Below are positions 4,484 to 56,603 of a stretch of 64,000 nucleotides of DNA, in pieces. Position 1 is the first letter of the stretch. Each line of letters opens with the position of its first letter. Below the pieces are notes generated by a model that was not told the DNA's origin, did not search any database, and saw nothing but the letters and a program-made list of their open reading frames with translations. The position numbers and the translations under genes were made by a program. Source of the DNA: Rugalucina vietnamica (lineage: Eukaryota > Mollusca > Bivalvia > Lucinida > Lucinidae); NCBI GenBank assembly GCA_964017185.1, contig OZ024870.1:31953621-32017620 (forward strand), in the 5' to 3' direction.

Positions 4484-6330
4484 TATAGGTACGAACGACA
4501 TGCATGTTTTCAGTCTTTGATTAAATGACCTACATCCCTGAGAATATTGCATCTTCCTGGTTGTATCTAGTAAGCAGTTAGAGAGTACACACTGTCTTCC
4601 GGATGAGGCTAGTTGCTTGATACCGTAACCCTTACATGTAACTCAGTAAGCGTAAACCACCGTCACGTTTAAACCACCGTCACGTTTACCGTTAGAAATC
4701 AGCTTCATGTAGTCAAGTAAATTAGGTAGCCATGTATTTCATTCGTATTTTTAACGGTAATTATGTGAGTTAAATATGTATATCTTCCATTTTACCCATG
4801 CACAAAGTAGTTCACATCTAAATAATACTTATCAGGTATCGCCCATACGTAGAACTAGACGGAATGCAGATGCTGGTCAAAATCACTTCATCTTGTATTA
4901 CTGCTTCTATGACAAGGTGGAAAAACTAAGTTGTAATTCTTTGTATAAACTAAAAACAAGAACGAGAGGAAGACCGGGACGACAAGCTAATTGCTACATG
5001 TATGACCCCATGTATTTGCTTAATACTAATTGCTAGATGCTTACTGGAAAACGTTGAATGGTAACTAAAGAATTTTGAAAAAGTCGATAAGGATATTGAA
5101 AATGTCCATAATTTCACATTATGTTGGAATGACGACAATATAAAAAACATTTAAAATTATATGAACAAGCATAGTGGATTAAATTGTCAATCAACATTAA
5201 GCAATTAGCATTTGGCAAGTAGCATTTATAATTTAGACAATCTCATCAATGTGATCTTTGTTTTCCCCCCTTTTCATTCCCAGTTAGTTGTCGTTACTAA
5301 ACAAAAACATTATTCACCACACAATTTGCAATTAGGATGTAGCAAGTAGTAATTTGCACTTAGCAAAAGACAATAAGCATTTAGCAAAGAGCATATAGCG
5401 TATAGCAATTAGCATGTCGCCCTGGCCTTCCATAGTATACAAGACAAATCTGATTTTTGTTCAAAATAGGAAAGGTACAAGTAGGCAAAGATCAGGAAGA
5501 GGCGCAATCAGAAAAAGATTCCCACTCCAAAAACCGCGGTGGGAAAAAACCAAACTAACAATCAGGTACTTATACCATGAAACATATCGTAAGCCGAATG
5601 AGCAGCTATTTTCCCAATAGGTGGCCACTCAGTTATCTTAACTTAACTAAAAATATGAAAACATACATAAGGCGCCAACAGCACCAAAAAAAAAAAAAAA
5701 TAAATAAATAAACACCAAGACATAAAACAAAAAGAACCACCACAGAAGTGTCGACTTGGAACGATCAGTAACACAAAGTTACTGGCGGGCTTAAACCGGT
5801 TTTACAGGTACCTAACCTCACCCTCAGCTTCTGCAGTGGTTCATAACATTTAGTTAGTTCTTCGGTCCTCGTGGTGAATCTCTAACTAGTCAATGAATCA
5901 CCAAGAACAAACAAATAAATCATGATAAACATCAACCAGGACTCACTGTACTATACATATTCCAAACTTAAGCATCATACCATTAAATGCATCTCGTCGA
6001 TATCCTTAATATTTCTGCTATTCATCCACCAATGAAATATCTTTATCATGATTATGGTTGTTTATTTGTTGCCCAATTTTATTGCTTCCGCCACTTTTCA
6101 ATACTCAGTACTTTTCAATATGTGAGCATGTAATCATTTTGGGGGACTTTTAGAAGTGGCAGAGCTTCAAGAATAAATTCCATAAGGAGTAGATCGTCTT
6201 AGAGCTTATTTATATGAGCCGAATTCTTCATTATATAGTCATGAAAAATTCTGATTTGTATTCGTTCTAGCGTAAACAAATGCATAGCCCAGAAAGGCCA
6301 TTGATAGTATTAGTCTTAAATTTTGCATCT
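4484..6330. repeat. Tandem duplication unit 3, partial and interrupted
   Basis: The unit start recurs at 4484. After a non-matching middle and a LINE tail insertion (5471-5947), unit sequence resumes (CATATTCCAAACTTAA near 5958 and TTCATTATATAGTCATGAAAAATT near 6225), ending near 6320. A pair of 17-bp direct repeats (AAACCACCGTCACGTTT) lies near 4653-4690. The stretch 5180-5420 is a loose array of AGCAATTAGCA-like words. Confidence 0.65.
5471..5947 (-). mobile_element. LINE family 2, 5'-truncated 3' tail (copy A)
   Basis: Read on the minus strand, this matches the 3' untranslated tail that follows the RT remnant at 15366-15656 and ends in the shared terminus GCCTACTTGTACCTTT. It is truncated at the 5' side, as LINE insertions typically are. 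A small deletion near its 5' end removes about 14 bp relative to copy C. It contains no coding sequence. Confidence 0.8.
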
Positions 6331-14735: not shown

Positions 14736-15659
14736 AAAGGTACAAGTAGGAAATGATCAGGAAAAGGCCAAATCAGAAAGAGCTCCACACTCCAAAAACC
14801 GAGGTGTGAAAAACTTAATTGACAATTAGGTACTTATAATTAGAAAAAAAAATATCGTAAGCCGAGTGAGCAGCTATTTTCCTATAGGCGGCCACTCGGT
14901 TACCCGAGCTTAACTAAAGCTATAAAACGTTTGTAAGGTTCAAACAGCACAAAAATTCGACCCCAGATCACACAACAAGTAGAACCACCATAGAAGTATC
15001 GCCTTGGAACGATCAGTAATATAATAAAATTACTGGGGGACTTAAATCGATTTTACAGAGCTCTAAGTTAAATCTCACCCTCATTTTCTGCAGTGGTTCA
15101 CAACATTTAGTTAGTTCTTCTGTCCTCGTGGTGAATCTCTAATAACTAGTCAATGAATCATAAAGGACAAACAAATAAATCATGATAACCACCTTGATAA
15201 ATCAAAAACGAGGACTCACAAATTCAGTAAGCTTCCCGACGATGGAGATCTCTGGGCATCGAATAACTTACTGAAATCCGCAGCAAAAGAAAAAATACCA
15301 GTAAACCCCGATGGGCCAAGCAACAGACAAGAAGCTCCGGTCCCAACCAACTAAAATGAATAGCTTTATGTCGGGGCCATCATAGAGTCTGACGCCCTAC
15401 TCGTCGGTGTGCAATTAAAGAAGGCAGCATACTTATCAACCATGATTGGGTTAAAAACTAAGCATGCAGACTGTCGCATAACATTTAAGTTATAGCCTAT
15501 ACGTCTGTAACGGGTAATGATTATTCTGAACTGAAAAGAAAAATCATTCCTTTCTATAAGTTTCTTAAATTTGTAAACCAAGTCACCATAAAATTCTGGC
15601 TCCGAAAGCCCCTCACGTAAAAGCGTCTTTAGTCCAAACATTGAATTGGAAATCAATTA
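14736..15659 (-). mobile_element. LINE family 2, longest tail with RT remnant (copy B)
   Basis: On the minus strand the order is: the last codons of an RT-type protein (15656-15366), a stop, then a 3' UTR of about 630 bp ending in CCTACTTGTACCTTTG at 14736. This copy links the anonymous 200-700 bp repeats of the window to a LINE. It is 5'-truncated within the coding region. Confidence 0.85.
15366..15656 (-). pseudogene. C-terminal fragment of a LINE-type ORF2 protein
   Basis: A 96-codon frame ends ...SDSMMAPT and a stop. Its core (GLSEPEFYGDLVYKFKKL, then ITRYRRIGYNL, then MRQSACLV) is repeated with substitutions at 39042-39315. From memory this C-terminal block accompanies reverse-transcriptase proteins of invertebrate retroelements. 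The catalytic RT domain itself is not in this window, so the assignment to a LINE is inference, supported by the shared 3' tail and by 5' truncation of all copies. It is a non-functional fragment. Confidence 0.65.
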
Positions 15660-16144: not shown

Positions 16145-16682
16145 AAAAGGTACAAGTAGGCAAAGATCAGGAAAAGGCGCAATCAGAAAAAGATTCCCAC
16201 TCCAAAAACCGAGGTGGGAAAAAACCAAACTAACAAATATGTACTTATACCATGAAACATATCGTAAGCCGAATGAGCAGCTATTTTCCCAATAGGTGGC
16301 CACTCAGTTACCTTAACTTAACTAAAAATATGAAAACATACATAAGGCGCCAACAGCACAAAAAATTTTAAACACCAAGACATAAAACAAAAAGAACCAC
16401 CACAGAAGTATCGACTTGGAACGATCAGTAACACAAAGTTACTGGCGGGCTTAAACCGGTTTTACAGGTACCTAACAGGTACCTAACCTCACCCTCAGCT
16501 TCTGCAGTGGTTCATAACATTTAGTTAGTTATTCGGTCCTCGTAAATAAATCATGATAAACATCCTGATGAATCAAAAACCAGGATTCACAGATTGAGTA
16601 AGCTGCCCGACGATGGAGATCCCTGGGCGCCGAATAACCTACTAACTCCGGAGCAAAAGAAAAACACCAGTTGGACCCCGGT
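16145..16682 (-). mobile_element. LINE family 2 tail (copy C)
   Basis: Minus-strand tail with the standard 3' terminus near 16145 and truncation near 16682. It contains a 10-bp duplication (AGGTACCTAAC twice near 16467-16488). It is followed at 16682-16745 by two copies of a 33-bp unit (GTTGAAAACTGTTTAAGG core). Confidence 0.85.
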
Positions 16683-16847: not shown

Positions 16848-17117
16848 AAAGTAAAAGTAGGCAATGATCAGAAAATGGCACAATCAGAAATTAATTCCCA
16901 AAAAACCAAGGTGGGAAAAAATTTACAATCAGGTACTTATAGTAAGAAAACATATTGTAAGCCGAATGGACAGCCATTTTCCCACTAGGTGGCTACTCAG
17001 TTACCCAACTTAACTAAAACTATGAAAACACACATATGGTGCTAACAGCACAAACATTCAACACCAAGACGAAAAACAATAAGAACCACCACAGAAGTAT
17101 CGCCTTGGAACGATCAG
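16848..17117 (-). mobile_element. LINE family 2 tail (copy D)
   Basis: Minus-strand tail of about 270 bp. The 3' terminus reads CCTACTTTTACTTTG, and the 5' truncation falls just past the CGCCTTGGAACGATCAG word. It lies about 165 bp from copy C. Confidence 0.8.
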
Positions 17118-17289
17118 TTTTCGGGTACTGAATCCTCATGCCAGTATGTCACACAAGAAGATCCAGGGTGAATTACCAGTTGTTAGGATGTGCACAATTG
17201 TGATTGGAATTTAATTTGTACATACAATGTACATGTATTAAACAAAATGAAAAATGGTATAGACGTAGTGTTCTATTCAGTCCAGACAC

Positions 17290-18551: not shown

Positions 18552-20350
18552 GATTTTTTTCAATGTGCAGGGCGGAGCCTGTCAATTTTTGATTGACAAT
18601 GACAAAGTTGACCATTACATTTAAAAATAGGTAGTTTTCACTTGGACTGTTACTTTGACCCACTTGTTATTGTTGATCCAATCAGTGTCAAAATTTAACC
18701 TCATGCACTGAAAATGATGGGTAAACACCATACTGTCACAGAAAAATATTCTGTACTACATGACTGTATTTATGTATGACCACATTGAAAATTCCATTAT
18801 TAAATGCCTGGTAAACATTCAGTTTAAAACTTTAATTCTGATACAATTAAATATCAAATGATGCAGGCTTACTTTAGATTACTAATTTACTAATGAAAGC
18901 AGCAGCAAAAAGTGCAATAACTTCTTACTGGAAGTCACAGTACGGATCTGTAAAGTGTTACAGACAGCTCAGTCAAGTTAGCAGCGAATCTGTTGCAGCA
19001 GCAGCAGAAAAAAAAGGAAAAAGAAACGGTCAAGTTAGCTGCAATTAAACGTTTTGACACCTATTGTCTATTGTTCATATAGACAAGGCTCCAGAGTATC
19101 ATCATCTATCTTGAAGCTTACACTGATTATGATAAGCAAATCACTAAAGTGAACTACGGCACAATTCGGTCTCTCCTTTTCGTTTAAGTCTGTCTATGAG
19201 CGCTGTGACGGCAACTTCTGACGCAGCGTCTATAAGAAACGATGATGAATGTCATCACAAGCAGACGTTTTTATATCCCACCTATTACCCTGTAGTCTAT
19301 GGACACTTTTACTGTTGGCAGGGAACTTTTGTCCTTAAGCTATGTTATGGGTGGGATAGAAAAGTCTTGTTTGCGGCATAAGTATTCGTTTCCTATAGCA
19401 CTCACAGCCAGACGAAACTGTAAAAATCGGCAACATTTTCCATAACGTTGGTAATATGTGGTCTAGAAAAGCTCTGTTGCAGAATTCATCATCATTTTCT
19501 ACATAGCGATCACAGCCAAACGAAAAAGAAAAAAAAATAATAAGAAGAAGATAAAAAAAAAATGCGACAAACATTTCCACTTACATGGGTGACGTCGAAA
19601 AGATGTGATCGTGGCATTAAATGTCATTTTCTTATGCGCTATCACCTAGATTAAAGCCAAATCAATCTGCGACAAAAATGTTCGCTGCAAGCGATATTGT
19701 TGCTTACTTGACTGTTTTCGCTGTAGCAAAATAGCTGCTTACTTGACCAATTTCGCTGCAGCAAAATTGCCGCTAGCTTGACTGTATTTTGCTGCAGCAA
19801 ATTTAATTCTAACGCTGCAAGCAAAATTGCCGTTAACTTGACTGCTTTTGCTGTAGCAAAAGTGCTGCTACATGTAACATGACCGATTTTGCTGCAGAAA
19901 AAATGCTGCTAACTTGACCGTTTTTGATGCAGCAAATTTGCTGCTAATTTGACCAAGCTGACCTTGTAGGAAAAATAAGTAAAATCAGCTGGTTCTCCAA
20001 ATCGCTTTATTTTTTCGAATGGTACTTTATTGACCTTCTACTGCGGTCATGTACCATCAGTAAAGCAAAGAGTTGTTGACAAAAATAGAGGCATTGGCTA
20101 ACTTGATAGAAATATTTGAGTGTAGCTGTATGGTTATATTTTAGAAACAAAATGTTTATGTTTTTGTGTGTCTACCATACACTTCACCTATTTTGAAATC
20201 ATTCAGGTGAAACACAGGTATAGCACAAAGACAACAAGCATAGTCACATTTGCTTCAATTATACATTGTCAGCTCTGGGACCCTTTCTCAACAATGAAAT
20301 CATCCGAGGCTGGGCTTAGCTAAGCCCTGCCCTGCACATTGAAAAAAATC
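18552..20350. mobile_element. Putative non-autonomous DNA element, 1.8 kb, 22-bp perfect TIRs
   Basis: The word TTTTTTTCAATGTGCAGGGC at 18554-18573 recurs inverted at 20329-20348; with two further bases on the outside the inverted repeat is 22 bp with no mismatch. Copy 2 of the segmental duplication lacks this block between sequences matching 18545 and 20780. The interior has no transposase-like frame but holds a minisatellite (19690-19965). Target duplications are not clear, so the exact ends are inferred from the inverted repeat. Confidence 0.6.
19690..19965. repeat. Minisatellite, about 36-bp unit, some 7 units
   Basis: Degenerate direct repeats with consensus close to GCTGCAGCAAAATTGCTGCT followed by AACTTGACCGTTTT. 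The reverse-complement word AGTCAAGTTAGCAGC also appears upstream at about 18970-19040, so the array may extend discontinuously through the element. Confidence 0.8.
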
Positions 20351-20520: not shown

Positions 20521-20742
20521 GTAAAAAGGTACCAGTAGGCAATGATCAGGAATCAGAAGAGAAAAATTCCCACTCCAAAAAACCGAGGCGGGGAAAAACC
20601 GAACCGACAATTCGTCAGCCGAGTGAGCAGCTATTTCCTAATATGTGGCCACTCAGTTACCCGAACTCAACTAAAACTATGAAAACGTGCATGTGGGTTC
20701 AAACAGCACAAAAATGGACTCCAAAACATAAAACAAATAGAC
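20521..20742 (-). mobile_element. LINE family 2 tail (copy E)
   Basis: Minus-strand tail with 3' terminus CCTACTGGTACCTTT near 20521, truncated near 20742. It lies close to the junction between the two segmental copies (about 21.0 kb). Confidence 0.75.
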
Positions 20743-23235: not shown

Positions 23236-23430
23236 TACAAAGGTTCAAGTAGGCAATGATCAGGAATAGGCGCAATCAGAAAGAAATTCCCACCTTTAAA
23301 ATCCAAAAATCGATGCGAGATAAACCCAAATTGACAATTAGTACTTATACTTAGAGAACATATACGAGTAGTAAGCCGAGTGTGCAATTATTTCCACGTA
23401 GGTGGCCACTCAGTTACCCGAACTTAACAA
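23236..23430 (-). mobile_element. LINE family 2 tail (copy F)
   Basis: Minus-strand tail of about 195 bp with 3' terminus CCTACTTGAACCTTTG and truncation just past GTAACTGAGTGGCCACC. Confidence 0.8.
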
Positions 23431-24177
23431 ACCTTATTGACATGTTTCAATCGAGATATGCTACATCCTTATAGCCAATAAATGCAATGGTAATAGACAA
23501 AGCATAGCATTTGATGCTGAGAATAGAACATTTACCTTAAAAAGAAAACTATAGATCGCTCTTATACTATTTTAGTCAAATTAAGGCGGTATTGATAATA
23601 TGGAATTAATCTGCTTACCCGATAAAGTCTATTGAGACTTTGTTAATCTTTTTATTAATGAACTCGGATTTAGTTAATATCGGACAGAAATATGTCATCT
23701 AAACTCTAGGGATAGAAACATTGTTACTGATTTACATGATACTGAATACTAATTGAATGTCATGCTATACAGTAAAGTGACGTCGTCCTTCAATGTTTGC
23801 GTGGGGTAGGCATTTTTGCTCATACAAGTGGACATTGTGCATGTTTGTACGGGGAAGTATTTGCAATTACAAATGATCCGCACTTTACCAGACCGTTGGA
23901 TTTAATTGAAACATAAGAATAGAAATTCAATGTCTAGAAAACAGAAGAAAACACAAATACACAAAACAGAACTAAACCAATCGTCCACGGACACCAGACA
24001 GCATTTAATCATGGTCAGCGAATAGATATTTCCGGCTGGACTCCGGTTAAGTTAATGTGGCACAGAAAATCACAAGAATAACGGCTGATAAACTACATCA
24101 TTCCATGAGTAAATATTGATTGGTCTCTTGAAGCTTCTTTGGGTCATGCTCTGCAGATCATTTACACTGTTGTACAG

Positions 24178-24870
24178 GGCCCAGTTGTTCAAAACTTCGT
24201 TAGCTTAACGCTGTCGTTAAGGCCTTAATTTGTTAACTATATATCGACTTCAGTTCGGAGTTGGTAGGTTATTCGGCGCCCAGGGATCTCCATCGTCGGG
24301 CAGCTTACTCAATCTGTGAGTCCTGGTTTTTGATTCATCAGGATGTTTATCATGATTTATTTGTTTGTTCTTGATGATTCATTGACTAGTTAGAGATTCA
24401 CCATGAGGACCGAAGAACTAACTTAATGTTATGAACCACTGCAGAAGCTGAGGGTGAGGTTAGGTACCTGTAAAACCGGTTTAAGCCCGCTAGTAACTTT
24501 GTGTTACTGGTCGTTCCAAGTCGATACTTCTGTGGTGGTTCTTTTGGTTTTATGTCTTGGTGTTTAAAAATTTTTGTGCTGTTGGCGCCTTATGTATGTT
24601 TTCATATTTTTAGTTAAGTTAAGGTAACTGAGTGGCCACCTTGCTCATTCGGCTTACGATATGCTTCATGGTATAAGTACCTGATTGTTAGTTTGGTTTT
24701 TTCCCACCTCGGTTTTTGGAGTGGGAATCTTTTTCTGATTGCGCCTTTTCCTGATCTTTGCCTACTTGCACCTTTTTTTTCAAAAGCAAACTCACTGTTA
24801 GTTTTTGCTGAAAAAATTTGAGAATCCTCTGCAATGCATATTATTTTTCACGTGTCAGATGAGTAAACTT
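24178..24870. mobile_element. Element M6, interrupted by a LINE tail (copy b)
   Basis: 24178-24250 matches the left end of M6 at 51968 (GGGCCCAGTTGTTCAAA, CGTTAGCTTAACG, GTTAAG). 24781-24870 matches one arm of its hairpin (CACTGTTAGTTTTTGCTGAAAAAATTTGAGAATCCTCTGCA). LINE tail G (24256-24780) lies between. The right arm and right end are missing. Confidence 0.7.
24256..24780 (+). mobile_element. LINE family 2 tail (copy G)
   Basis: Plus-strand copy of about 525 bp running from the GTAGGTTATTCGGCGCCCAG region to the terminus GCCTACTTGCACC and a T8 run. The RT remnant is absent. It is inserted into element M6 copy b. Confidence 0.85.
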
Positions 24871-26472: not shown

Positions 26473-26770
26473 AAAGGTAAAAGTAGGGAATGATCAGGAA
26501 ATTGTGTAATCAGAAAAAAATCCCTATAAAAACGAGGTGGGAAAAACTAAATTTACAATCAAGTACATATACTGAGAAAACATATCGTAAGACGAGTGAG
26601 CAGCTGTTTTCCCAACTTCCCAACAGATGACCACTCAGTTACCCAAACTTAACTAAAATATGATAACGTACATAAGGTTCAAACAGCGCAATAATTCAAC
26701 ACCAAGACAAACCACTACAGAAGAATCGCCTTGGAACGATTCGTTATATAAAGTTACTGGCGGGCCTAAA
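26473..26770 (-). mobile_element. LINE family 2 tail (copy H)
   Basis: Minus-strand tail of about 300 bp inserted in unit I after TTTAGAAATGTTATAT. Unit II reads straight through this point near 30700, so this copy inserted after duplication or was lost from unit II. Confidence 0.85.
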
Positions 26771-27740
26771 GTAGTGAATTGTATGGAAACTGATATTATA
26801 TGACCAGGATTCTAGACCGTTTTATTGTGTTAAAATTACTTACCATTTTATTAAATCAATAATCAACAATTTTAAGATAGCTCAAAAATTGCTTCCCGAA
26901 ACAAAGCAATCTGAATGTTAAAAAATAAAGAAGAAAAAATACAAACTTATAAAGCAAAAAATCTGCCTGGTCAGTTTTGAACTCAAAATGTCACAAACTG
27001 CCATTGAGAAAAATGCATTTACCACTCAATCCCTTCAGCTTTCATCATATCTCAGGAATAATCAGAAATATCCTGAGAACTAGATAATAACAAGCTCTTG
27101 CCTAAACATGTTTGATTGGCAATAAAACAGAAGTTGTTTCTCCTTAGCAGTTCATTAATCTCAGAATCTCTCATTCAACAGAATTCAATAAATTCGAGTA
27201 TCACCACAAGACAATCGCTGGGAACTACACACAATTACGAAACTTGCTGAAACGCTGAAACGACGTTACATATACATGGACTTCGCAAATTAAGACAAAA
27301 CAGGACCATCAACGACATCTAATTTCAGGCTTCCTTATGAATACTTCGATCTAGAAAATAACACAGTTATTTTTCAAATGCTAACTAGTAAGGCATTTGC
27401 TATTTATTCGAACTAAACCACATAGTCATCCCTTGGAAGGTTACAACACACTTACATGGTAAGAGAGATACAAACAAATACACTGTAAATGGAAAACGTA
27501 TTGCTCTGCGATAGAAAACAAATCCCGAATTACGGTAAACTCTCTTTAAATATGAATACATTGCACAGTTCTTTAATCATGATTTTGAATTGTCATAGCA
27601 AAGCCATGACTGGAAATTAAATCCACAGTCTACGGGAATACATTCAATTTACGAAATGAAATATTTTATGTATTAACTTATTGGATTTTGAAGTTTGAAT
27701 GATTTTAGCAATTACATAGATTTAAAAGAACTTTAATAAT

Positions 27741-27788
27741 CTCTTTCTGATTGCGCCTTTTCCTGATCGTTGCCTACTTGTACCTTTT
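27741..27788 (+). mobile_element. LINE family 2, 48-bp terminal fragment (copy I)
   Basis: Only the last 48 bp or so of the tail are present (TTTCTGATTGCGCCTTTTCC to GCCTACTTGTACCTTTT). It is an extreme 5' truncation. Confidence 0.75.
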
Positions 27789-29992
27789 CAGCAAAGTATA
27801 ATAAGCAAACTTAATGAATTTCAGATACCGATAGAGCCAGATGAAGTAGTAATATACAGTAATGAATATGTTATCAGCTCACCTGAGCCGAAAGCGCAAA
27901 TATAATATACAAAAAAAAAATAAATAAAATAAAACAACAGTTATCGTACTACAGTACGGCCACATGCTTTGTGGAAGATACAATAACCATAGATTGAGTT
28001 AATGGGCTATAAAATCAGGTTATGTCTCTTTAGTAGACAATTTAGCTCCAGCACAACGGAGTAAATTCTGTTGTCCGGAAAACATCCCAATGGTGCAACG
28101 GGGTAGCAGTTATGCCGCAGAAGGGACGCTTATACTACTGATAATGGGTGTACATATATCAGCAAAATCGTGAGAAAATACGTTTTGACAGTTTGCATCA
28201 ACAGATATGAGTTAAGTAAACCAGAAAAGGTTGTGCTACGTTATGTACTATGGCCGAAAGTCAGTCTTAATGTCAAAGCGAAAACGGTGCTATAAAGTAA
28301 ACTTAGCGCTGTCAAATCATCAAAACCACGATACAGCAGAATTACCATACAGGCAAGGGTTATGTATGTCAACCCGTAAATTACATCCGGAGAAAAACAA
28401 GGACGATCTTGTTAGTTAACTAGTACTCATTTTGATTTCACTCAGTCTGGATATTGTATTAAAATGTGCACCGATTTTCTCACTACAGTTTCCTTTGTTA
28501 TGCTTTATTATATACAATATAATTTGCAATTGTTTTTAAAGATGAACACGCAGGCAAACAATTTTAATATCCGGTTTGAAAGAAAATCGAAGAGCCAATT
28601 GCCTGATTCTTTTCTCCCTGACAAGGCGACCGACAAAATCGCTTTGATAATGTTTCATTGCCTCGAAATATCGGAAGCTGGATAATTTTACAGGCAAATT
28701 CTATCGTCTGGATTAACTTTTCAATATAAATAGAGCATTGAGAAACATGGAAAGAAAATTATGACTTTCTACCATGATACAATGGAATCGTATATTGACG
28801 AAATTGGATGTTAAAATATGCGAACCCGAAAGATAGTAAAAATTCGGGCATCACCCCTGTTGAACAACAGCTTTGTTATTAGTTGTGATGATTTGTGTAA
28901 ACCGAATTTGAATGCCTCTCTTGCCTCTTTTTCTGAACACGTCATTCTTTTTATCTTTCCGGGTCGAAAAATCCGAAGACCGACAGGTTTTCGCGACGGG
29001 ACTTATTAAACAGATTGAATTTCGTCGCAGGAAAGCAAAACTAGCTTCGATGTTTGCCAACCATCAGAATAAAGCAAAGTGACTCTGCAGCTACGGAAAT
29101 AAGCAAACGTTTTTGGAAACACATAACATCAGTTTCAAATATATTTGCAGATTTGTTTTTTTAAATACGACTCTTACTTTTTTGCAATTCTTATTTTCTT
29201 ATACATTTGCACATGTTTGCTTTGATCGCTACGTTCTATAACCCGTTTAATTCATCTGCCGGTGAGAGTGTCAGATTCCATCAACCAAATCCAGGTTTTT
29301 TGATAATTAATCTTTCCAAGCAATTCACAGTTAATTCACAGTGCCATACAGTAAATTGCAAGCACGTCGAAAGATGGGAAATGATCACTAGATTCGTATA
29401 TTCTCAAAAAGATCGGTTTAAAAAAAAAACTCAAAAATTTGCCATTTGAACGCGGTTCGTTATATCGCTCCTCCTCTCATTTAGATACTTATTTAACAGA
29501 AATAACATTGTGATTTAATCTACATGGAAACGCATCAATCGTGTTCTTGCAGATCATGCGAAACCCGTTTAAATTTAAACTGACTGACTGCAAGCTTATC
29601 AAGTATGACAGACAAAACATAATGTTGATCAAACAAAACGAGATTTTGCACGAGAAATAAGCTTTGCGATGGGAACTCTTGTTAAAATTGTCATCGGACT
29701 ACAAAAGATGTTTGGTTTTCATTATATTATCCTGCATCCATCTTGATAATTGAATTTTGAATTGTCATTTGGTTCATCAATAGACTCTCCCCCACTAGGC
29801 TTTTCGCAAGCTAATGATAAGTATAAAGGTATGTATCCACGTCATGGATCCAATCCCGAAATACTCCATAACCTGTTGAACTATGTTTGACATCTAAACT
29901 CATAACTTCTTTGGGATTGTTTTAATCGAGCCACTTCTTCCAGTGCTACTTTGGTTGGTGTTTGGTTTCGATTTTCATTGTTTTAGATATAC

Positions 29993-30251
29993 ATAAGTCG
30001 AGTGAGCAGCTATTTTCCCAGTAAATGGCCACTCAGTTACCAAAACCTTCCTAAAAATATGAACATAAGGTACAAACAGCACAAAAATTCAACTCCAAGA
30101 CATAGAACAATAAAAACAGCCACAGAAGTATTGCCTTGGAACGACCAGTAATATAAATTACTGACGGGCTTAAACTAGTTTTACGTGTACCTAACCTCAC
30201 CCTCAGCTTCTGCAGTAGTTCACAACATTTAGTTAGTTGTTCGGTCCTCGT
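29993..30251 (-). mobile_element. LINE family 2 tail lacking its 3' terminus (copy J), at the unit I/II junction
   Basis: This matches the family from the ATAAGTCGAGTGAGCAGC word to GTTCGGTCCTCGTG, but the terminal 100 bp or so normally present at the 3' end are missing. A LINE tail without its 3' end is not explained by ordinary 5' truncation; it fits a recombination or deletion breakpoint. Confidence 0.8.
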
Positions 30252-36680: not shown

Positions 36681-36689
36681 GCTTAAAAA

Positions 36690-36937
36690 AAGGTAAAGTA
36701 GGCAAAGTTCAGGAAAAGGCGAATCAGAAAGAGATTCCCATTCCAACAACCGAGGTGGGAAAAAACTAAATCAACAATCAGGTACTGATACCATGAAAAC
36801 ATATCGTAAGCCGAATGAGCAGCTATTTTCCCAATAGGTGGCCACTCAGTTACCTAAACCTAACTTAAAATATGAAAACATACATGAGGCGCCAACAGCA
36901 TAGAAAATGTAAACACCAAGACATAAAGCAAAAAGTT
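36690..36937 (-). mobile_element. LINE family 2 tail (copy K), at the unit II/III junction
   Basis: Minus-strand tail of about 250 bp with 3' terminus CCTACTTTACCTTTTT. The next base begins unit III sequence. Confidence 0.85.
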
Positions 36938-38783
36938 AAAATCTGTTGTAAAGTGTTTGATATGTAAGTTTACCTTAAACGTACTTATTATCTAGACCAG
37001 GACTTTAGCTTGTCTGACTAGGATAAAAGTGATAAGATAAGCATTTTAATAAACCAATAATCCATTCATAAAAAAAGTTCAAACATTGCTTCCTGCTTCC
37101 CGCGGATGCTAAAAATGTAAACCGAAATAGAACCAAATCTCCATCAGACCAAATCTTTGCTAGATAATATAGCTCTTTCCAAAACACAACAGTATGAAAT
37201 ATACGTGATAATATATAATAGTATTTGATAATTATTTGAAAAAAAAATATCATTTAATAGTTTTCGTTTTAATTATTGCCTATCGAAATTTAATGTTAAA
37301 ATGCCACAAAATTACAAGAGAGATGGAAAAAAACCACCATTCAGTCAATCCTCTAAGCCATCATCCAACCCAAGGATTATAATTAGAAATATCATAAGAA
37401 CTTCTTGCCTAAACATGTTTGATTGGCAATAAAACAGAAGTTGTTTCTCCTTAAGTTAGCAGTTCATTAATCTCAGAATCTCTCATTCAACAGAATTCAA
37501 CAGAATTCAATAAATTTGAGTATCACCACAAGACAATCGCCCCAATATCCGTTCATCTCAGAAATTCAGTGGCTTATATGTGAACTGAGAACTACATATA
37601 GTTACACGCAAGTTTCCGAATCGATGGACCTGTATGCTTTATTGTAATCGTATTTTCGAGGTTACGCATAATCAGACTGGGCAAAATAACGTATGTCTCG
37701 TTTCGAAATCATCTATAGGTTTTCATATGTATGATGCGATCTAGAAAATCACACAGTTATATAACAGATGTTAAGGCATTTACTATTAATTTTAAATAAA
37801 CCACGTTATCATCTCTTGGAAGGTTACAACATACTTACAGGATAAGAGAGATACAAACAAATAAATGGAAAACGTATTGCCCTGTGATAGAAAGCAAATT
37901 CTGAATTACGGTATTAAAACTCTCTTGAAACATGTACTTAAGGATGTCTAATTTCTAAAAGAAATGCGATACTGCAATGCGAAGCTTAACGTAATTTCTG
38001 ACGTGCTCCGTGATGGGGTGGGTGGGTTAAGTAAAACCACCACTAACTGGCAATAAAACACTTTTAATTAACCAAACTTTCAGAATTGATTGGATTTAAG
38101 CAAGTTTTTTGTCAGCTGAAATTTGAATATGTTTGCCTGAACCGTTATCAAGTTATGAGAAAAGTCCACGTAATTTTTTATAATCCTTAGTACATGTATT
38201 ATACATAATTCTGAGAAAATACGTTTTGTTATTTGCATCAACACGTATGATTTAATCAGAAAAGGTTGTGATACGTTGCGTACTATGATCGAATTCAAAG
38301 CGAAAAGAGTTCTACAAGGCAAACTATGCGCTGTCAAGCCAAGGATGTTATGAATATCAACCCGTATATTATATCTGGAGAAAAGCGTTAACTAGAACTC
38401 GTTTTCATTTCAAACAGTCGGAACATTGTGTTTAAATCTGTTCCGATTGCTTCGCTATGGTTTCTTTTGTTATGCACTATTATTTGCACTTTAATTTGCA
38501 ATTGCTTTCAAAGCAAAGCTCCTTTTTAGATTTACAGCTTTCTATTTCAAATGGATTTGTTCCTTCTAAAATTTACGATAAAGTATATAGTAAATTTTCC
38601 GTTTTGGGATGGCGACGTTCCTCGTCGTACTTCTTATGATGTATACATTTCACAACTTATTAGGTTTGCTAGATGCGGACTTCAAAGCTGACAGCCAAAT
38701 TTCTCCAGCAAGGCTACCGGTATCATAAACTTTGAAAAAACATTTTCTAAATTTTATTGCAGACACTATGAATTGATTTCCAA

Positions 38784-39036
38784 AGGTACAAGTAGGCAAA
38801 GATCAGGAAAAGGCGCAATCAGAAAGCGATTCCCACTCCAAAAACCGAGGTGGGAAAAAACCAAACAAACAATCAGGTACTTATACCATAAAACATATCG
38901 TAAGCCGAATGAGCAGCTATTTTCCCAATAGGTGGCCTCTCAGTTACCTTAATTAAAAATATGAAAACATACATAAGGCGCCAACAGCACATAAAAAATC
39001 TAAACACCAAGACATAAAACAAAAAGAACCACCAAG
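38784..39036 (-). mobile_element. LINE family 2 tail (copy L), head to head with copy M
   Basis: Minus-strand tail of about 250 bp ending at AGAACCACCAA. Its truncated 5' end directly abuts the truncated 5' end of copy M. Confidence 0.85.
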
Positions 39037-39425
39037 TTTAATGTTGGGCTAAAGACGCTTTTACGTGAGGGCCTTTCTGAACTAGAATTTTACGGTGACT
39101 TGGTAACCAAATTTAAGAAACTTATAGGAAGGAATGATTTTTCTTTTCAGTTCAGAAAAATCATTACACGTTACAGACGTATAGGTTATAACTTAAATGC
39201 TATGCGACAGTCTGCATGCTTATTTTGTAACACAATCATGGCTGTTAACTATGCTGCCGTCTTTAATTGCACGCCGGTGGGTCTGTCGTCAGACTCTATG
39301 ATGGCCCCGACATAAAGCTGTTCATTTTAGTTGGTTGGGGCCGTAGCTTTCCCACATCATTTTTGAGAGTGGGAATGTCTTTCTGATTGCGCCGTTTCCT
39401 GATCATTGCCTACATGTACATTTTA
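39037..39425 (+). mobile_element. LINE family 2 with RT C-terminus and shortened 3' UTR (copy M)
   Basis: This starts within coding sequence at the same region as copy B, runs through the stop at 39313-39315, and jumps after GTTGGGGCCGTAGCTT to the last 70 bp or so of the tail (CCCACATCATTTTTGAGAGTGGGAA to CCTACATGTACATTTT). About 550 bp of 3' UTR are therefore missing. Confidence 0.85.
39042..39315 (+). pseudogene. C-terminal fragment of a LINE-type ORF2 protein
   Basis: The frame TTT AAT GTT GGG CTA is open for 90 codons to TAA. It aligns with the 15366-15656 fragment without gaps, with changes such as EPEFY to ELEFY, VYKFKKL to VTKFKKL and SACLVFNPIM to SACLFCNTIM. Loss of conserved positions and lack of the upstream RT domain mark it as a dead fragment. 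Confidence 0.65.
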
Positions 39426-41345: not shown

Positions 41346-43757
41346 CATGTAAGCTTTCTTGCTGGGACTAGCGTTGAGACGGTTAGGAAGTTACACGACT
41401 AAATGTTAAAATCCTATCGAAACACCACGAACACGTGTGGCCATACTACTGTACTAAGTATAACAGTGTTTTCAGTTTCTCTTTCGCAGTAACTTTGCTA
41501 TTCAGTTGGCCTCAGTCAAGGTTGGTCTGATATTTATTATGAGTTGCTTCACGAAACAAAAAAGGATTTTGTTGATGCAAATACAAATAACAAATACGCA
41601 GATCTGCTGTGCAGTTTTCGCTAGACAGATCACGTAGGCCTACAATCCCTCTTAACGTTTCGACACCATGGCATTTATTATGACAGCGCTGGTTTAATGT
41701 TACTGGATGAATATAATTTTTTTTGTTCAGAAAGGTTCTGACTAAGGTGGCCATTTTTGGATTGTGTAGTCGATGTATGCATTTGGCAATGATTTTGTTT
41801 TCTCATGTGTGTGTTCAAAGTAAAATAACACATGTCATGTCTTAAAAGATAAGAGTAAAATGAAAGAATGAGATCCACCAAAGTGCTTTTAAATGCATTT
41901 TGAATTGATTATCAGATACTAAAGCATACATAGTTCATTTTCACGCCCTTAAAATTCAAAACTGGCATGTTTATGGAGCCAAGCAGCGCCGAAACAAATA
42001 ACATTTACATCAACAGGAATGGAACAAGGAATGCAACAAAAAAGGTTGCAAACTCAAGTTTTGAAAATAAGCAATAAAGTATCAAGTTCGTTTAAGAGGA
42101 CTTTTGAACAATCAGAATACGTTTTTATCAGCCATTGATAAAGGTAGGGCCATGTGAGTGTATCCAATAGACTATAGGAAGACATTTTTTCAACATCATT
42201 TTTCCAGGTAGCTGATGTAGCAAAATGATTGGCAAATACAGTAACCACACAAGAACCGAGTAAAGAAAACAGGCAATGTACACTGCAGTCATTCAAGACC
42301 TGGAAATAGTCAAAAGTCGTGCATTTTGTATAAAGATGTATTCACATTGCCGAACAACAGCCGTACATTCCAACTAACTAGCTCTCGTGTGCATGTTTCC
42401 ATTTTATCGTGTTTTGATTATCCATCATATCGGTAACATCTGTTTTGATAAGATATAGATCTTTTTAAGACTGTTCTATGGCTAATGAGTACTTCTAAGT
42501 ACCTTAGTTTGAATTGCTTCTGACAGAATTATTATGGTTTGTTACCTGTGTGCTTTTTATGCCTAGTCGAACACCTGGTATAAGCCATCATACTAACAAC
42601 CATCTAACGCCCTATTTACTATCAACGCGTGCATGTTCGAATACTTCAAGAAAGTTTCTGTAATTGAAAATCAATAAAACTGCGCTGGCGATAAATTCTT
42701 TAAAGAGTTCACGATCGCAGTTGTTAGATTCTGCATGAACACATTTGCTTCTATATAATGATTTGAATTTATTTCTGGTTGAAAAAGAGATGTGTACTGC
42801 GATTGACACAACCATTTCCATTGCTTTGCCTCTGTCATTCGATGCCTTCGTAATTTGTTATGCCATTCAGTCTAAGCGTAGATATCCTTTATAAAGGGTG
42901 TTAAGAAAGTTCGTTCCGGGCAAAAAATGTTTTCCTGATAGTTTATTACGGAACGGGGAACCAAAATGACCTTTGCCATGACGTGTTTACAAAATGGCAT
43001 TATAGTCCCGCTGTGTTCCTATTTTTATTATCTATTAATTACAAATATAAATATCAGGATGCCAGTGGTATAAAATGATAATACCCTCCCGTGAGTCTTG
43101 CGTAGAGCTTATGCTGTTTTTGTTTTTGTAAAAATATAACAATTAGACGTAGCTTTCTAGCACTCTGCAAGTCAATCCTAGCATCATTTATATCTGAAAA
43201 TGAATTAACCGACTAATCAAGCAAATATTAACAGACAGATTATTTCATGTTAAAACACTATATTTTACGATAAAAATAATTCAGCTAATGTAAACAGCAT
43301 TTAAGACTTTGTGCATTACATAAAGAAATATTAATGCGTTCGACAACAAACCATACTCATGGATGATATGACGCCTACTCAGAGTTCACGTAGAATTATC
43401 AAGATATATCTGATGTGATATTTATTGTTGTCAACTCTAGTCAGTTTTATCCATGCTTTCAATGTTATAATATATTGCAAATTTCGCATGGCATGAAATC
43501 CCACGTCAAGGTAGAAATCCAATAAAATGGCGGTAATATCCTAACATTACCATAGCTATTGAATAGGACGTAAAGCTTCAAATCAAATAAAGATCTACAC
43601 GGATGCTAAACATGTAGATTTAACTCACAAGAAGTCAACATGTATATATAATTCGAATGGAGGACATTGCTTTTCAGTTAGATTTATTATATTAAGGACC
43701 CTTAACATTAATTGTGAACTTAACGTCGTTTATGTTTAGTTTTTGTTTGTGTTGCAA
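41346..43757. other. Mostly unique sequence; possible minus-strand exons
   Basis: Apart from a decayed SINE-like tail at about 43500-43592 (TCCTAACATTACC...AGGACGTAAAGC), I find no repeat family here. Several minus-strand frames lie in succession (42821-42612, 42299-42054, 41754-41512); only the middle one has a strong splice acceptor. No domain is recognised. Confidence 0.4.
42054..42299 (-). CDS. Possible terminal exon, unrecognised product
   Basis: On the minus strand a pyrimidine-rich acceptor (CTTTTGACTATTTCCAG) is followed by 81 sense codons and TGA. The product starts VLNDCSVHCLFSLLGSCVV and includes TLTWPYLYQWLIKTYSD. The frame immediately upstream on the same strand (42821-42612) could donate at GAA/GTATTC in matching phase, but that donor is weak. 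I recognise no family. This could equally be a chance open frame. Confidence 0.18.
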   Translation of the reverse strand, partial: VLNDCSVHCLFSLLGSCVVTVFANHFATSATWKNDVEKMSSYSLLDTLTWPYLYQWLIKTYSDCSKVLLNELDTLLLIFKT

Positions 43758-43762
43758 ACGAT

Positions 43763-46700
43763 CCAGTAATTTTATATTACTGATCGTTCCAAGGCGATAC
43801 TTCTTACCCCGGGAGCTAATTTGACCTACCTTGCACCCCCCAGGACAATTTTTCATGGGTGCCAAATTGTTCATTGGGACCCCAGAAATGCAAAGAATTT
43901 TTGTCCTCAAAGATAAACTCAATTGCACTATGAAAAAATGCATGGTTTCCATGGCAAGCGTTAAAGCGATTCTTGAGCATGGGGGTGTACATAGAAAATT
44001 GACCATATCTCCATTGATACTTATCCTAGACCACTGAAATTGGTCTCATTTTAAAGCTTAGACATAGCCCTTATATTCTGTAGTAAGTAATGCAAATTTT
44101 CGAATTGGCATATTCATGAATTTTAATGAAAATATTAAAAATGACAGAAAAATCGTTAAAAATCCATAAATAAACTAATTTCAGACCCAAACTGTCATTC
44201 TGACACTTTGTTATTGAACCAGTAATATCATATGGGAAATTTATTGATGACCTGGGCCTATATGAACATTATCTCATTTGCATATTTATGAATATTAATG
44301 GAATTGATAGAAATTGAGGAAAAACGAGGGAAAAAGTATATCCATTGCAAGGTATTGGATAGGTTATAAGGTCTATCTTTCATCCCTGGGACAAATTCTG
44401 AAGGCTGCCAGTGTGGTCAGAGGGACCACCTTAATGCCATAAAATATTGTCCTCAATGATAAACATGTTTGCATGATGTAAAATGACATAGTCTTCACAC
44501 CCACCCCTAGTGCGATTCTAAGGAATAGGAGGTACCTACAAAAATACATCACACCAATAGTGTGCTCTATGATACTATAATTGGTCTGATAGTGATGCAT
44601 GAACCAAACAATTTAACCTTGATACCTTATAATTTATTTTAATCATTGAATTTGCTTATTCATGAAAATTAATTAAAAAAAACATAAAAAATGGAGAACA
44701 ATCGTGGAAAAAATAGGGGTATACATGCAAAATCGCTTGTACAAGAGCTATTAATAAACCCAAGATGCTGAAAGAGATTTCAAATGAATGCTATTGCAAT
44801 GTACTATGACCCTAAAGTATGATTTAAGAATAATCTGATTTTCAGTTTCATGAATTTTCATGAAAACTTAAGAAATATAAGGGAAAAAGTTAAAAACTTA
44901 AATGGGTAAACCTACAAAATGACTTGCATCTCAGCAGTCAAAAGCCCTACAGTGCTAAAAATGGTATCAAATGGTTGCTATGGCAATATCATACCATCCT
45001 GTACTACAATATTTAAGTTATTTGATATTTTGTTTGAAGAATATTAACAAAACGTTTTGAATTTAGTGAAAAAATACAGAAAAATAATGGGGGTATACGT
45101 AGAAAAACGCACATATCTTGGCTACTGAAAGACCTAGAGAGCTATAATTGGTATCAAATGATTGCTAGGACAATGTTCTATGACCATGTAATCAGCAATA
45201 TATAACATCAACTATTGTTGTTATATGGATATTAATGAGGTCATAAATAAGAAAAAAATCAATGAAAAATGACGGGGTACACCAATCAAATCGCTAATAT
45301 CTCATTTACCAATAGCCATAGAGAACTCAAAATGGCATCAATTAATTGCTAGGACAATGTATTATTGCCGGGTACTCAGATATATGAATCATCTTCGCTG
45401 GCAAGCAAGATTTAATAAATTTTGTTTAAGCACAGCCTTCAGTTTTCTGTTATTTTCACAATATTTCAAAACTTTATGTAACATTCAGAAAATTTCATAA
45501 CATTTTGTTAAAGTATCAGACTACATGGCAGTAGTGCATTCTCCTAGCTATCTATTGGTACCATTTTCAGCACTCTAAGGATATTGGCAGTTGAGATATA
45601 AGCCATTTTGTTGGTGTATCCTTTCATTTTTCGTAGATTTTTCTCTTATTTATGACAATCTCTTTAATATACATACACCACAATAGTTGATGTTTTATAT
45701 TGCTGATTACATGGTTATAGAACATTGTTCCAGCAATCATTTGATACCAAATATAGCTCTCTAGGTCTTCAGTAGCCAAGATATGTCCGTTTTTCTACGT
45801 ATACCCCCATTATTTTTCCGTATTTTTCACTAAATTAAAAAAGGTTTTGTTAATATTCTTCAAACAAAAACTCAAATGACTTAAATACTGTAGTACAGGA
45901 TGGTATGATATTGCCATAGCCACCATTTGATACCATTTTCAGCACTATAGGGCTTTTAATTGCTATGATGCAAGTCATTTTGTAGGTTTACCCATATAAG
46001 TTTTTAACTTTTTCTCTCAAATTTCTTAAGTTTTCATTAAAATTCATGAAATTGAAATTCAGATTATTCTTATATCATACTTCAGGGTCATAGTACATTG
46101 CAATAGCCTTCATTTGAAATCTCTTTCAGTATTCTGGGTTTATTAATAGCTCTTGTACAAGCGATTTTACATGTATACCCCTATTTTTTCCACGATTTTT
46201 CTCCAATTTAAATGTTTTTTTTTTTTTATTAATTTTCATGAATAAGCAAATTCTATGATATAAATATAGGGTATCAAGGTTAAATTGTTAGGTTCATGCA
46301 TCACTATCAGACCAATTATAGTATCCTAGAGCATGCTATTGTTGGGATGTGAGTATTTTTGTAAGTACCTCCTATTCTTTAGAATCGCACGAGGGGTGGG
46401 TGAAGACTATGTCATTTTACATCATGCAAATGTGTTCATCATTGAGGACAATATTTTATGCCATTTAGGTGGTCCCTCTGACTACACTGGCAGCCATGGG
46501 AATTGGTTAAATGGATGCAAGATAGACCTTATAACCTATCCAAATCCTTGCAATGGATATAGTTTTTCCCTTGTTTTTCCTCATTTTTTGACATTTTTAT
46601 TAATATTCATGAATATGCAAATGAGATAATTTTCATATAGGCCCAGATCATCAACAAATTTGTCATATAATATTACTGGTTCAATAACAAAGTTTCAGAA

Positions 46701-47364
46701 TGACAGTTTGGGTCTGAAATTAGTTTATTTATGGATTTTTAACGATTTTTCTGTCATTTTTAAAGTTTTCATTAAAATTCATGAATATGCAAATTCGAAA
46801 ATTTGTGTTACTCACTACAGGATGAAAGGGTTTTATCTAAGCTATAAAATGAGACCAATTTCAGTGGTCTAAGATAAGTAACAATGGAGATATGGTCAAT
46901 TTTCTATGTGCACCCCCATGCTCAAGAATCGCTTTAACGGTTGCCATGGAAACCATGCATTTTTTCATAGTGCAATTGAGTTTATCTTTGAGGACAAAAA
47001 TTCTTTTCGTTTCTGGGGTCCCAATGAACAATTTGGCACCCATGAAAAATTGTCCTGGGGGGGGGGGGGTTGCAAGGTAGGTCAAATTAGCTCCAGGGGT
47101 TTCTGTGGTGGTTCTTTTGTTTTATGTATTGGTGCTTAAATTTTTGTGCTGTTTGCACCTTATGTGTGTTTTCATATATTTAGTTAAGTTTAGGTAACTG
47201 AGTGGCAACCTATTGGGAAAGTAGCTGCTCATTCGGCTTACGATATGTTTTCATGGTATAAGTATCTGATTGTTAACTTAGTTTTTTTCCCACCTCGGTT
47301 TTTGGAGTGGGAATCTCATAATGATTGCGCCTTTTCCTAATCGTTGCCTACTTGTACTTTTTCC
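43763..47364 (+). mobile_element. LINE family 2 tail (copy N), split by the foldback element
   Basis: 43763-43804 (CCAGTAATTTTATATTACTG to GATACTTCT) and 47101-47364 (TTCTGTGGTGGTTCTTTTG to GCCTACTTGTACTTTTT) are contiguous in other copies, for example around 24500-24545. The intervening 3.3 kb is a later insertion. Confidence 0.9.
43805..47100. mobile_element. 3.3 kb foldback (FB-like) transposon with tandem-repeat arms
   Basis: The two halves are inverted copies. The left end TACCCCGGGAGCTAATTTGACC matches the inverted right end ACCCCTGGAGCTAATTTGACC, and the similarity continues for about 1.6 kb to a non-matching centre near 45390-45520. The host LINE tail is interrupted with TTCT on both sides (43801-43804 and 47101-47104), a 4-bp target duplication. 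Within each arm a unit of about 185 bp repeats: a GGGGTATAC-ATAGAAAA-TCGC-like landmark falls near 43981, 44527, 44715, 44902, 45089 and 45272. No transposase or RT frame is present. The outermost 68 codons are open in both arms, but their differences are almost all nonsynonymous, which argues against a protein. The architecture matches foldback elements known from other animals; the family itself I do not recognise. Confidence 0.9.
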
Positions 47365-47953: not shown

Positions 47954-48188
47954 GAGCCGCATCGTGAGAAAACCGGATTTTTGCCTAGGCGAAAACAAAG
48001 GCGCAGATCAGCTTCGCGGTAACCGCGAAGCTTATCAGCGCCTTTGTTTTCGCCTCACGGATAGTACAATTTCTCTTCTTCTTAAATCCGAAATTTCAAG
48101 CTTCTAGCCTGCTTCTGTGACTGTACAGGTCGGTTTGTGTCGGACCAGGTCGGAAATCCCGAAGACCGGTTTTCTCGCGTCGCGGCTC
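47954..48188 (+). mobile_element. Palindromic MITE family M1
   Basis: GAGCCGCATCGTGAGAAAACC ends, central hairpin GCGAAAACAAAGGCGC...CTTCGCGGTAACCGCGAAG, and a 4-bp duplication AAAT (47950-47953 and 48189-48192). The subfamily has GGATTTTTGCCTA in place of AACAATCTGCATA next to the end. Confidence 0.92.
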
Positions 48189-48589: not shown

Positions 48590-48823
48590 GCGCCTGTGCA
48601 TGAGAAAACCAACAATTTGGGTTCCGACAAGGTCCGACACAAAGCGGGCTGTACAGTCACAGAAGATGGTTAGAGGCTGGAAATGTTGGATTTAGAAAGT
48701 AGAGGAATTGTTCTATCAGTGTAGCGAAAACAAAGGCGCTGATCAGCTTCGCGGTTACCGCGAAGCTGATCTGCACCTTTGTTTTCGCCTATGCAGATTG
48801 TTGGCTTTTCCATGCGGCGGCTC
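48590..48823 (-). mobile_element. Palindromic MITE family M1, inverted orientation
   Basis: Ends GCGCCTGTGCATGAGAAAACC and GCCGCCGCATGGAAAAGCC (inverted), with an intact hairpin around GCGGTTACCGC. It is flanked by ATAAT on both sides (48585-48589 and 48824-48828). Confidence 0.9.
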
Positions 48824-53855: not shown

Positions 53856-53983
53856 TTAGATTCAATTTCAATTGACTTTAATATGCTTATTTAATAGAAT
53901 GAATGGGAAGAGAGTGAATATGGTAACAGCCATAAGTATAAGTCAATTAAATCATACTGCTTACACATTTATAAGTTGTTATA

Positions 53984-56603
53984 CACAGTCTTCCGTCTAC
54001 CTAATAGGAATAAAACATCCTGGATGCATCCCCGTTCCAAACACTGGCATCTCATAGACTATGTCATAGTGCGGAGAACAGACAGGCAGGATGTTAAAGT
54101 GACAAAGACTATGTGTGGTGCAGACTGCTGGACAGATCATAGACTGGTTGTCAGCAAACTCAACCTAAGAATACAGCCTGCGAGGCGACCTCAAGGCAAG
54201 AAAGCTCCTAAGAGACTGGATGTCTCAAAGCTGAATAAAGACAGCATGAGACAAGATTTCTTAACAGACATTTGCAACCAACTGGATGCAATGAATCTCA
54301 GTTCAGAGGACCCCGAAGAAAACTGGACAGTTTTCCATAAAACAGTTCTTTCTTCAGCTGCAAGCACCTTAGGCCATCCATCTCGCAAACATCAAGACTG
54401 GTTTGATGAGAATGATGATGAAATTCAGAGGCTTCTTGAAGAAAAGCACCGTTTGCTCAAGGCACATCAAGATGATACTAGCTCAGTATCAAAGAAAGCA
54501 GCCTACAGCAACATTTGTAAGACAGTCCAGACCAAGCTTAGGGACATGCAAGATTCCTGGCTGAGGAAGAAAACAGAAGAAATTCAGTCTTTTGCGGATA
54601 GAAAGGACATGAAGAAATTTCATGATGCACTGAAAACCATTTATGGTCCAAAGAGTTCTGGAGCCACCACATTGCTCAGTGCAGATGGAAACACTCTTCT
54701 CACAGATAAAGAAGCTATCTTGGAAAGGTGGGCAGAACACTTCAATAGTGTGCTTAATCGACCATCAAGCATCAATCAGGATGCAATCGACAGACTTCCA
54801 CAGATAGAGTGCAATGTTCTGTTAGATGAATTTCCTACCGTTACGGAAACAAGAAAAGCAGTTCAACAACTATCATCTGGCAAAGCTTCAGGTGCAGATG
54901 CAATTCCTGCCGAAGTTTACAAGGCTGGGGGGCTACCCATGGCAGAGAAACTGACAGAGTTGTTTTACTGTATGTGGAGGAAGGAGGCTATCCCACAAGA
55001 ATTTAAGGATGCATCCATAATCCACCTATACAAGCGGAAAGGAAATCCTCAAGTCTGTGACAATCACAGAGGCATCTCCCTCCTATCAATTGCTGGGAAG
55101 ATACTTGCAAAAATTCTGTTAAATCGTCTGAATGCTCATCTTGATCAGATGGGACTTATCCCAGAAAGTCAATGTGGATTCAGAAAAGACAGAGGGACAA
55201 TAGACATGATCTTCACAGCAAGACAGCTTCAGGAGAAATGCCAAGAACAGAATGTAGATCTATACATGACGTTTGTTGACCTCACCAAAGCTTTTGACAC
55301 TGTTAGTCGTGATGGACTCTGGAAAATCATGGCCAAGTTTGGCTGTCCACCCAGATTCATAGCTATGGTGCAGCAGTTTCATGATGGCATGCAGGCACGT
55401 GTGCAAAATGATGGAGAGTTCTCTGAACCATTTGAAGTAACAAATGGGGTCAAACAAGGCTGTGTTCTGGCACCAACACTGTTCAGCATGATGTTTTCTG
55501 CCATGCTTATGGATGCTTTTCAGGACAGTGACACTGGTTTTCCAATCAAGTACCGTTTTGATGGCAACATATTCAACCTCAGAAGGTTGCAAGCCAAAAC
55601 TAAGGTCCAGACTGATGTGCTAGATGAGCTCCTCTATGCAGATGATATGGATAAGAATGCCAACACAGAGGCAAAAATGCAAAGAGCCATGGATCAAGTC
55701 TCACAGTCATGTGATAACTATGATCTCACAATCAGCACAAAAAAGACAGAGGTTGTACACCAACCAGCCCCCGGAAAACCATATAATGAACCAACCATCA
55801 CTGTGAATGGGCAAAAACTGAAAGTTGTTGACAAGTTCACCTACCTGGGAAGCACTCTCTCCAGAGCAGTGCATATTGATGATGAGATCACTGCCAGAAT
55901 TGCAAAAGCTAGTGTGGCATTCGGAAGACTCCGTGCAAATGTCTGGGAGCGAAATGGAATCAAGCTTGACACCAAGCTGAAAGTCTACAAGGCTGTGGTA
56001 CTGCCAACCCTCTTGTATGCATGTGAGACCTGGACAGTATACCAACGCCATGCAAAGAGACTTAACCATTTCCACTTAAGCTGTTTGAGAAAGTTGTTAA
56101 AAATCAAGTGGCAGGACAAGATTCCAGACACAGAGGTCCTGAGGAAAGCAGGGATGCAAAGCATGCATACAGTCTTAAAGCTAGCACAGCTAAGATGGAC
56201 TGGCCATGTTATAAGAATGCCTGATGCGCGACTTCCAAAGAAAGTTTTCTATGGAGAACTACAGGAGGGAAAGCGCTCTCAAGGTGGCCAGAAGAAACGC
56301 TACAAAGACACCCTCAAAGCCTCTCTGAAGGATTTCGAAATACCAATGGGGTCCTGGGAACAGACTGCACAGGAGCGATCAAAGTGGCGAGGTCTCATCA
56401 TCAAAGGAGCAGCTCTCTATGAAAAGAAGAGAATCTGTGAAGCTGAAAGAAAGCGAAGTGAGCGCAAAGCCAAAACAAATGTGCCACCAGCAGACTCTAT
56501 GACATTGACTTGCTCTACTTGCAACCGACAGTTTAGAGCCAGAATTGGCCTAGTCAGCCATCAAAGAACTCACCAACACACATCAGCACTATTCAAGAAG
56601 TAA
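53984..56603 (+). CDS. Endonuclease (C-terminal end)/reverse transcriptase of a LINE, uninterrupted
   Basis: The protein would copy its own RNA into DNA at a nicked chromosomal target. Counting residues from the open frame at 53976 (the first three residues are host flank), the end of an AP-type endonuclease is at 16-60 (SKHWHLIDYVIVRR; WTDHRL). RT motifs follow: GFRKDRGT at 401-408, FVDLTKAFD at 433-441 with the first catalytic Asp, GVKQGCVLAP at 491-500, and YADD at 554-557 with the catalytic Asp pair. A C2H2 finger lies at 846-866 (C846, C849, H862, H866), followed by the stop at 56601-56603. All 870 or so codons are open, so the insertion is recent or its source is active. The endonuclease core and start codon are missing, so this copy cannot be autonomous. 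An ORF1 is not present. Confidence 0.92.

Follow-up and report, generated by a model that had tools for sequence, protein, structure and literature searches.

A 3.3-kb foldback element with arms of degenerate tandem units in Rugalucina vietnamica

Within the window analyzed here, a stretch of 64,000 nt from Rugalucina vietnamica (OZ024870.1) to whose positions all coordinates refer, the segment 43805-47100 forms a near-complete inverted repeat of 3296 bp, which raises the question of whether it is a transposon and how its arms came to be built from tandem units in mirrored order. Very probably, this foldback element is a non-autonomous DNA transposon that relies for its movement on a transposase encoded elsewhere in the genome, a reading supported by its anatomy, by a target duplication and by uninterrupted copies of the target.

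Inverted arms and insertion site

When the element is compared with itself, including about 100 bp of flank on each side, the longest self-match is one inverted match running from end to end (43806-47100). Alignment of the element to its reverse complement as far as the midpoint, i.e., with the central stretch counted in the identity, gives arms of 1.59 kb each that are 90.8% identical (1467 matches in 1616 ungapped columns, plus 20 gaps totalling 63 columns). The two inverted arms of 1.6 kb described in an earlier note on this DNA are hence borne out by both checks proposed there, self-comparison and arm alignment, and, as is characteristic of foldback elements, the long inverted repeats make up most of the structure. 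The 149 mismatches between the arms, 69 transitions and 80 transversions, are clustered beyond all 2000 permutations. Per 200-bp step, arm identity amounts to 97.5% at the outermost position (194 of 199 ungapped columns), 86.5-93.4% over the six steps that follow and 81 and 77% at the centre, and only five mismatches fall into the outer 199 columns versus 144 in the remaining 1417 (Fisher p = 1.2e-4). With mismatches low at the tips and rising towards the centre, uniform decay from identical arms cannot alone account for the pattern; it would follow from constraint on the tips, from conversion that fails near the centre or from a centre that was imperfect at the outset. At 77 bases, the longest stretch of unbroken identity between the arms is not unusual (p = 0.08) and thus provides no hint of recent conversion.

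The element interrupts a dispersed repeat (43763-47361, plus strand) that is split into the pieces 43763-43804 and 47101-47361, and TTCT is present on both sides of the insertion (43801-43804 and 47101-47104), i.e., a target-site duplication as in other foldbacks, seen here for one element copy. Elsewhere in the window, the target repeat is matched in 14 rows, or at 13 places if adjacent pieces at 20.5-20.7 kb are taken as one (5471-5785, 14736-15036, 16145-16445, 16848-17118, 20524-20737, 23239-23431, 24492-24776, 26473-26760, 27738-27789, 29994-30163, 36688-36933, 38782-39034, and 39348-39424). The junction is spanned by seven of the 14 rows, and in all seven of these uninterrupted copies a single TTCT is aligned there, followed by G in six and by A in one, as judged by eye; one substitution directly before the site turns the local text of the copy at 26760 into TTCTTCT. 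Because a T follows the left copy and the right junction lies in a run of T, the length of the duplication is ambiguous and may be read as 3 bp (TCT), 4 bp (TTCT) or, if one mismatch is allowed, 5 bp (TTCTT/TTCTG). The tips of the element are ACCCC/GGGGT, a symmetry obtained with the 5-bp reading.

Measured from the start of the copy carrying the element, the interrupted repeat is about 300 bp long, and one of its ends is constant in 12 of the 14 rows while the starts are variable, as in truncated retroelements. Of the previous description as a 4-bp TTCT duplication generated by insertion into a LINE tail, the flanking TTCT and the uninterrupted copies elsewhere in the window are thus confirmed, whereas the exact length has to be widened to 3-5 bp and the LINE identity of the target is plausible. 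Two similar open frames near target-repeat copies, one at 39004-39315 on the opposite strand and the other at 15366-15656, gave no Pfam match. At 53898-56603 (plus strand) lies a LINE-like element whose long, unbroken frame of 901 aa contains a reverse transcriptase domain (Pfam RVT_1, E = 1.9e-33).

Because artefacts are known to take the form of inverted near-palindromes, the locus might be suspected to be a fold-back chimera that mirrors one array and was produced in sequencing or assembly. However, the divergence of the arms at 149 ungapped columns and by 20 gaps, the lack of mirroring in the roughly 100 bp of flank included on either side, and the target duplication with flanks joining into one interrupted repeat make this explanation extremely improbable, and it was rejected.

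Degenerate tandem units and the history of the arms

Each arm consists of eight degenerate units with a spacing of 172-192 bp plus a partial terminal unit; as in other foldbacks, the inverted repeats are made of tandem subrepeats, here in degenerate form. The left terminus (43805-43908, plus strand) begins with a tip of about 20 bp without internal likeness, followed by the partial unit 0 resembling the 3' half of unit 3, and the left array (units 1-8, 43909-45390, plus strand) has unit starts set at 43909, 44096, 44268, 44453, 44642, 44830, 45017 and 45204, the boundaries of units 1 and 4 being partly extrapolated. The centre or loop (45391-45505) is assigned to the minus strand, as are the right array with units 8-1 in inverted order (45506-46989) and the right terminus (46990-47100), which is an inverted copy of the left terminus according to the arm alignment.

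Evidence for the period comes from autocorrelation over lags 20-699, peaking at 187 in the left arm (0.353 versus a maximum of 0.340 in 200 block shuffles) and at 186 in the right arm (0.342 versus 0.337, likewise for 200 shuffles), while Tandem Repeats Finder did not report the arm arrays. The units themselves are established in both arms by profile and left-out tests. With the inner units 5-8 of both arms combined in one profile, partial matches of about 60-110 bp were obtained for units 1-3 in either arm, but for unit 4 only in the right one; these matches fall in the expected phase and have E values from 8.9e-10 to 5.7e-4, compared with 0.94 for the best of 200 shuffled arms. When one position at a time was left out of the profile, all 16 scores (units 1-8 in both arms) were above those of all 200 dinucleotide shuffles per position. 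The left-out scores are strong for units 1 and 5-8, clear for units 2, 3 and right unit 4, and barely above background for left unit 4 (2.8 versus a shuffle maximum of 2.3), which is marginal; the left-out matches of units 1-4 cover only part of the unit (about 65-108 bp). A profile of all units tiles the element, albeit in a circular manner for the units in its training. Among units 5-8, different positions share 55-64% identity, which drops to 30-35% for several pairs of outer units with no likeness evident by eye, the outer four units being much more worn than the inner four. Internal units of about 185 bp, as previously claimed, are therefore present in both arms, but with the measured spacing of 172-192 bp instead of the narrow range of 183-188 bp given at that time.

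The terminal part-unit 0 was not found by the left-out profile test. Compared directly with unit 3, it scores 34 in the left arm, above the maximum of 26 among 1000 shuffles, with the likeness extending from about position 22 inwards, whereas the right arm gives a score of 22, below the shuffle maximum of 26. Units 1 and 4 are alike at 54-56%, and a 95-bp match at a distance of 546 bp shows 70.5% identity (E = 1.3e-7). Taken together, these three sequence likenesses suggest an outer repeat comprising three units. At the centre, 45399-45498 matches weakly, in right-arm orientation, to a partial ninth unit that would extend the right arm (E = 0.0036 with the all-unit profile, for which the centre was not in the training, and E = 0.9 with the units 5-8 profile), and about 45 bases of the centre can also be aligned to unit 7, an alignment made without control. 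From these matches, a partial ninth unit is likely but not secure.

In a tree of the 16 units, with unit 0 and the centre left out, all eight left-right pairs from the same position are sisters at a support of 0.84-1.00. At the same position, the arms differ by 0.058-0.130 in units 1-7 and by 0.237 in the innermost unit 8 (overall mean 0.105), whereas units at different positions differ by 0.37-0.71 (mean 0.53, 112 comparisons). Since same-position pairs are sisters and the arms differ little while the units differ strongly, the array is old and had diverged before the present arms became alike, and the inverted arrangement would be younger or have been matched by conversion. The likeness of the arms would accordingly reflect either an inverted duplication that is recent relative to the array or renewal by arm-to-arm conversion. 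Tentatively, and with doubt prevailing, the element may represent a foldback family outside the Mutator and P superfamilies that duplicates 3-5 bp on insertion and whose concerted evolution acts from arm to arm but not along the array; the eight positions would then each retain a distinct unit, which conversion across the hairpin keeps matched except near the centre.

Origin, mobility and predicted folding

The element shows no coding capacity: among stop-to-stop frames of at least 85 aa, the longest overlapping one comprises 117 aa and crosses the element edge. By two unit profiles, no second copy was found in the window (best E 1.2 and 4.7), a search with the 24-base tip allowing up to seven substitutions gave one chance-like match in the window at 19940, and neither a transposase nor an autonomous relative was seen. 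Collections of viral and prokaryote records (viral contigs, genome contigs and plasmids) gave no match, but a control scan of the viral contigs with the target repeat was equally empty, so that these zeros carry no information. An element made almost entirely of tandem unit and lacking a transposase might also be regarded as a tandem array inverted by local rearrangement, with no transposon involved and with the flanking TTCT arising by chance. We consider this very unlikely, as the inverted repeat ends where the target repeat breaks, together with a duplication, and as DNA of the unit is found nowhere else in the window.

Cut-and-paste transposition by a transposase acting from elsewhere is hence the most likely route to the present position, the transposase perhaps belonging to a superfamily other than that of Tetris because the duplication has 3-5 bp and not 7-10 bp. 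As to the preceding steps, we infer the inverted duplication of an old tandem array that lay next to a transposon end; template switching or fold-back repair could, for instance, have produced it, and an uneven junction may have left a piece of a ninth unit behind in the centre. Such an inverted duplication would have rendered both ends recognizable, and the arms would since have decayed or have been kept alike by arm-to-arm conversion. By analogy with Galileo and Tetris, for which extra transposase-binding sites in the repeats have been proposed in the excerpt of PMC4079207, the repeated units may carry additional sites of this kind. The likeness between unit 0 and unit 3 points weakly in this direction, while the first 40 bp of the element are not convincingly repeated inside (p = 0.19 in the left and 0.015 in the right arm).

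The element, whatever its origin, might now serve as a hairpin-RNA locus giving rise to small RNAs. In line with this, a fold at -2262 kcal/mol is predicted, compared with -707 to -712 kcal/mol for three mononucleotide shuffles, with 1481 arm-arm pairs and a longest unbroken helix of 69. However, any such inverted repeat would fold likewise, and there is no Rfam match, neither in the window at gathering score nor in 43700-47200 up to an E value of 5, so that the model of a small-RNA source appears unlikely. For the same lack of an Rfam match, a known RNA repeat, ribozyme or other, was rejected, and no tRNA genes were reported. The very long duplex that the earlier note expected of any read-through transcript thus agrees with the predicted fold and is a prediction only, while its suggestion that the unit length relates to nucleosomes was not supported: a 10-bp periodicity of AT steps, as in a nucleosome-phasing sequence, was not clearly present (p = 0.21 in the left and 0.04 in the right arm, 300 shuffles each).

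Comparison with known foldback systems

Drosophila FB and sea urchin TU elements possess long inverted repeats composed of subrepeats, as does the present element, whereas their subrepeats are far shorter and their target duplications comprise 8-9 bp, with 9 bp for FB. Consequently, the proposed FB type holds for the FB-like build, but membership is not shown, the duplication of 3-5 bp deviating from the 9 bp of FB as well as from the 8-10 bp of Tetris and the 7-8 bp of Galileo. Nearest in design is Tetris from Drosophila virilis, for which the excerpt of PMC4079207 states no apparent coding capacity, no autonomous copy found, inverted repeats of up to 1735 bp with internal tandem repeats of about 220 bp, and 37 bp common to the terminal domain and the repeat unit. 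Both elements thus share inverted repeats holding tandem units and the absence of apparent coding capacity. In contrast, the duplications reported there for Tetris comprise 8-10 bp, its terminal domain reaches up to 866 bp (about 100 bp in the present terminus), it possesses inner and middle domains (here no separate middle domain), and the arm presented holds three or four repeats (here eight units per arm). The 8-10 bp duplication typical of Mutator-like foldbacks, as suggested for Tetris in the same excerpt, is not found at the present locus with its 3-5 bp.

Galileo, a member of the P superfamily, is likewise foldback-like (excerpt of PMC4168063), and one D. willistoni copy lacking the transposase segment bears direct repeats of about 140 bp within its inverted repeats. 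According to this excerpt, however, repeats in D. willistoni are confined to that one copy and unequal between its arms, transposase-coding copies are known and the duplication has 7-8 bp; the element studied here, with 3-5 bp, deviates from this P-superfamily length. Among the publication matches listed, none is about the present element and Tetris and Galileo come nearest, and six k-mers taken from the element and the target repeat had no match in the texts searched; as Repbase sequences were outside this search, its unpublished status is unproven.

With the duplication length ambiguous between 3 and 5 bp, the superfamily cannot be set. Duplications in this range are found in Academ, Sola1, Chapaev/EnSpm, Ginger and Transib. 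Helitron-type elements are not known to generate a target duplication. In oyster, Helentron-type elements are mobile elements with a satellite-like tandem array (listing of PMC7492417), whereas the array described here is inverted-duplicated and accompanied by a target duplication. Repbase, according to the portion available, classifies non-autonomous elements from the length of the duplication together with the first 11 bases. Within the molluscs, Academ, Sola, and Zator appear restricted to bivalves, with Academ among the richest superfamilies (excerpt of PMC10294476), which is a lead for the element and no more.

An independent emergence of the foldback structure in separate transposon lineages has been proposed, although most such elements seem to be Mutator (excerpt of PMC4079207). 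An array extending almost from end to end, together with a duplication unlike those of the Mutator and P types, would support such an independent origin. Inversions can result from foldback elements, which can also seed satellite DNA. An arm difference of 6-13% versus a unit difference of 37-71% makes arm-to-arm conversion testable across several copies.

A second, small inverted pair lies nearby, with 174-bp arms at 47982-48155 and 48622-48795 that are 87% identical and about 470 bp apart. A dispersed repeat of 150 bp or more, with a self-complementary core, overlaps the left arm of this pair; further matches to this repeat are located at 4220, 11931, 56834, 57106, 58125, and 59553.
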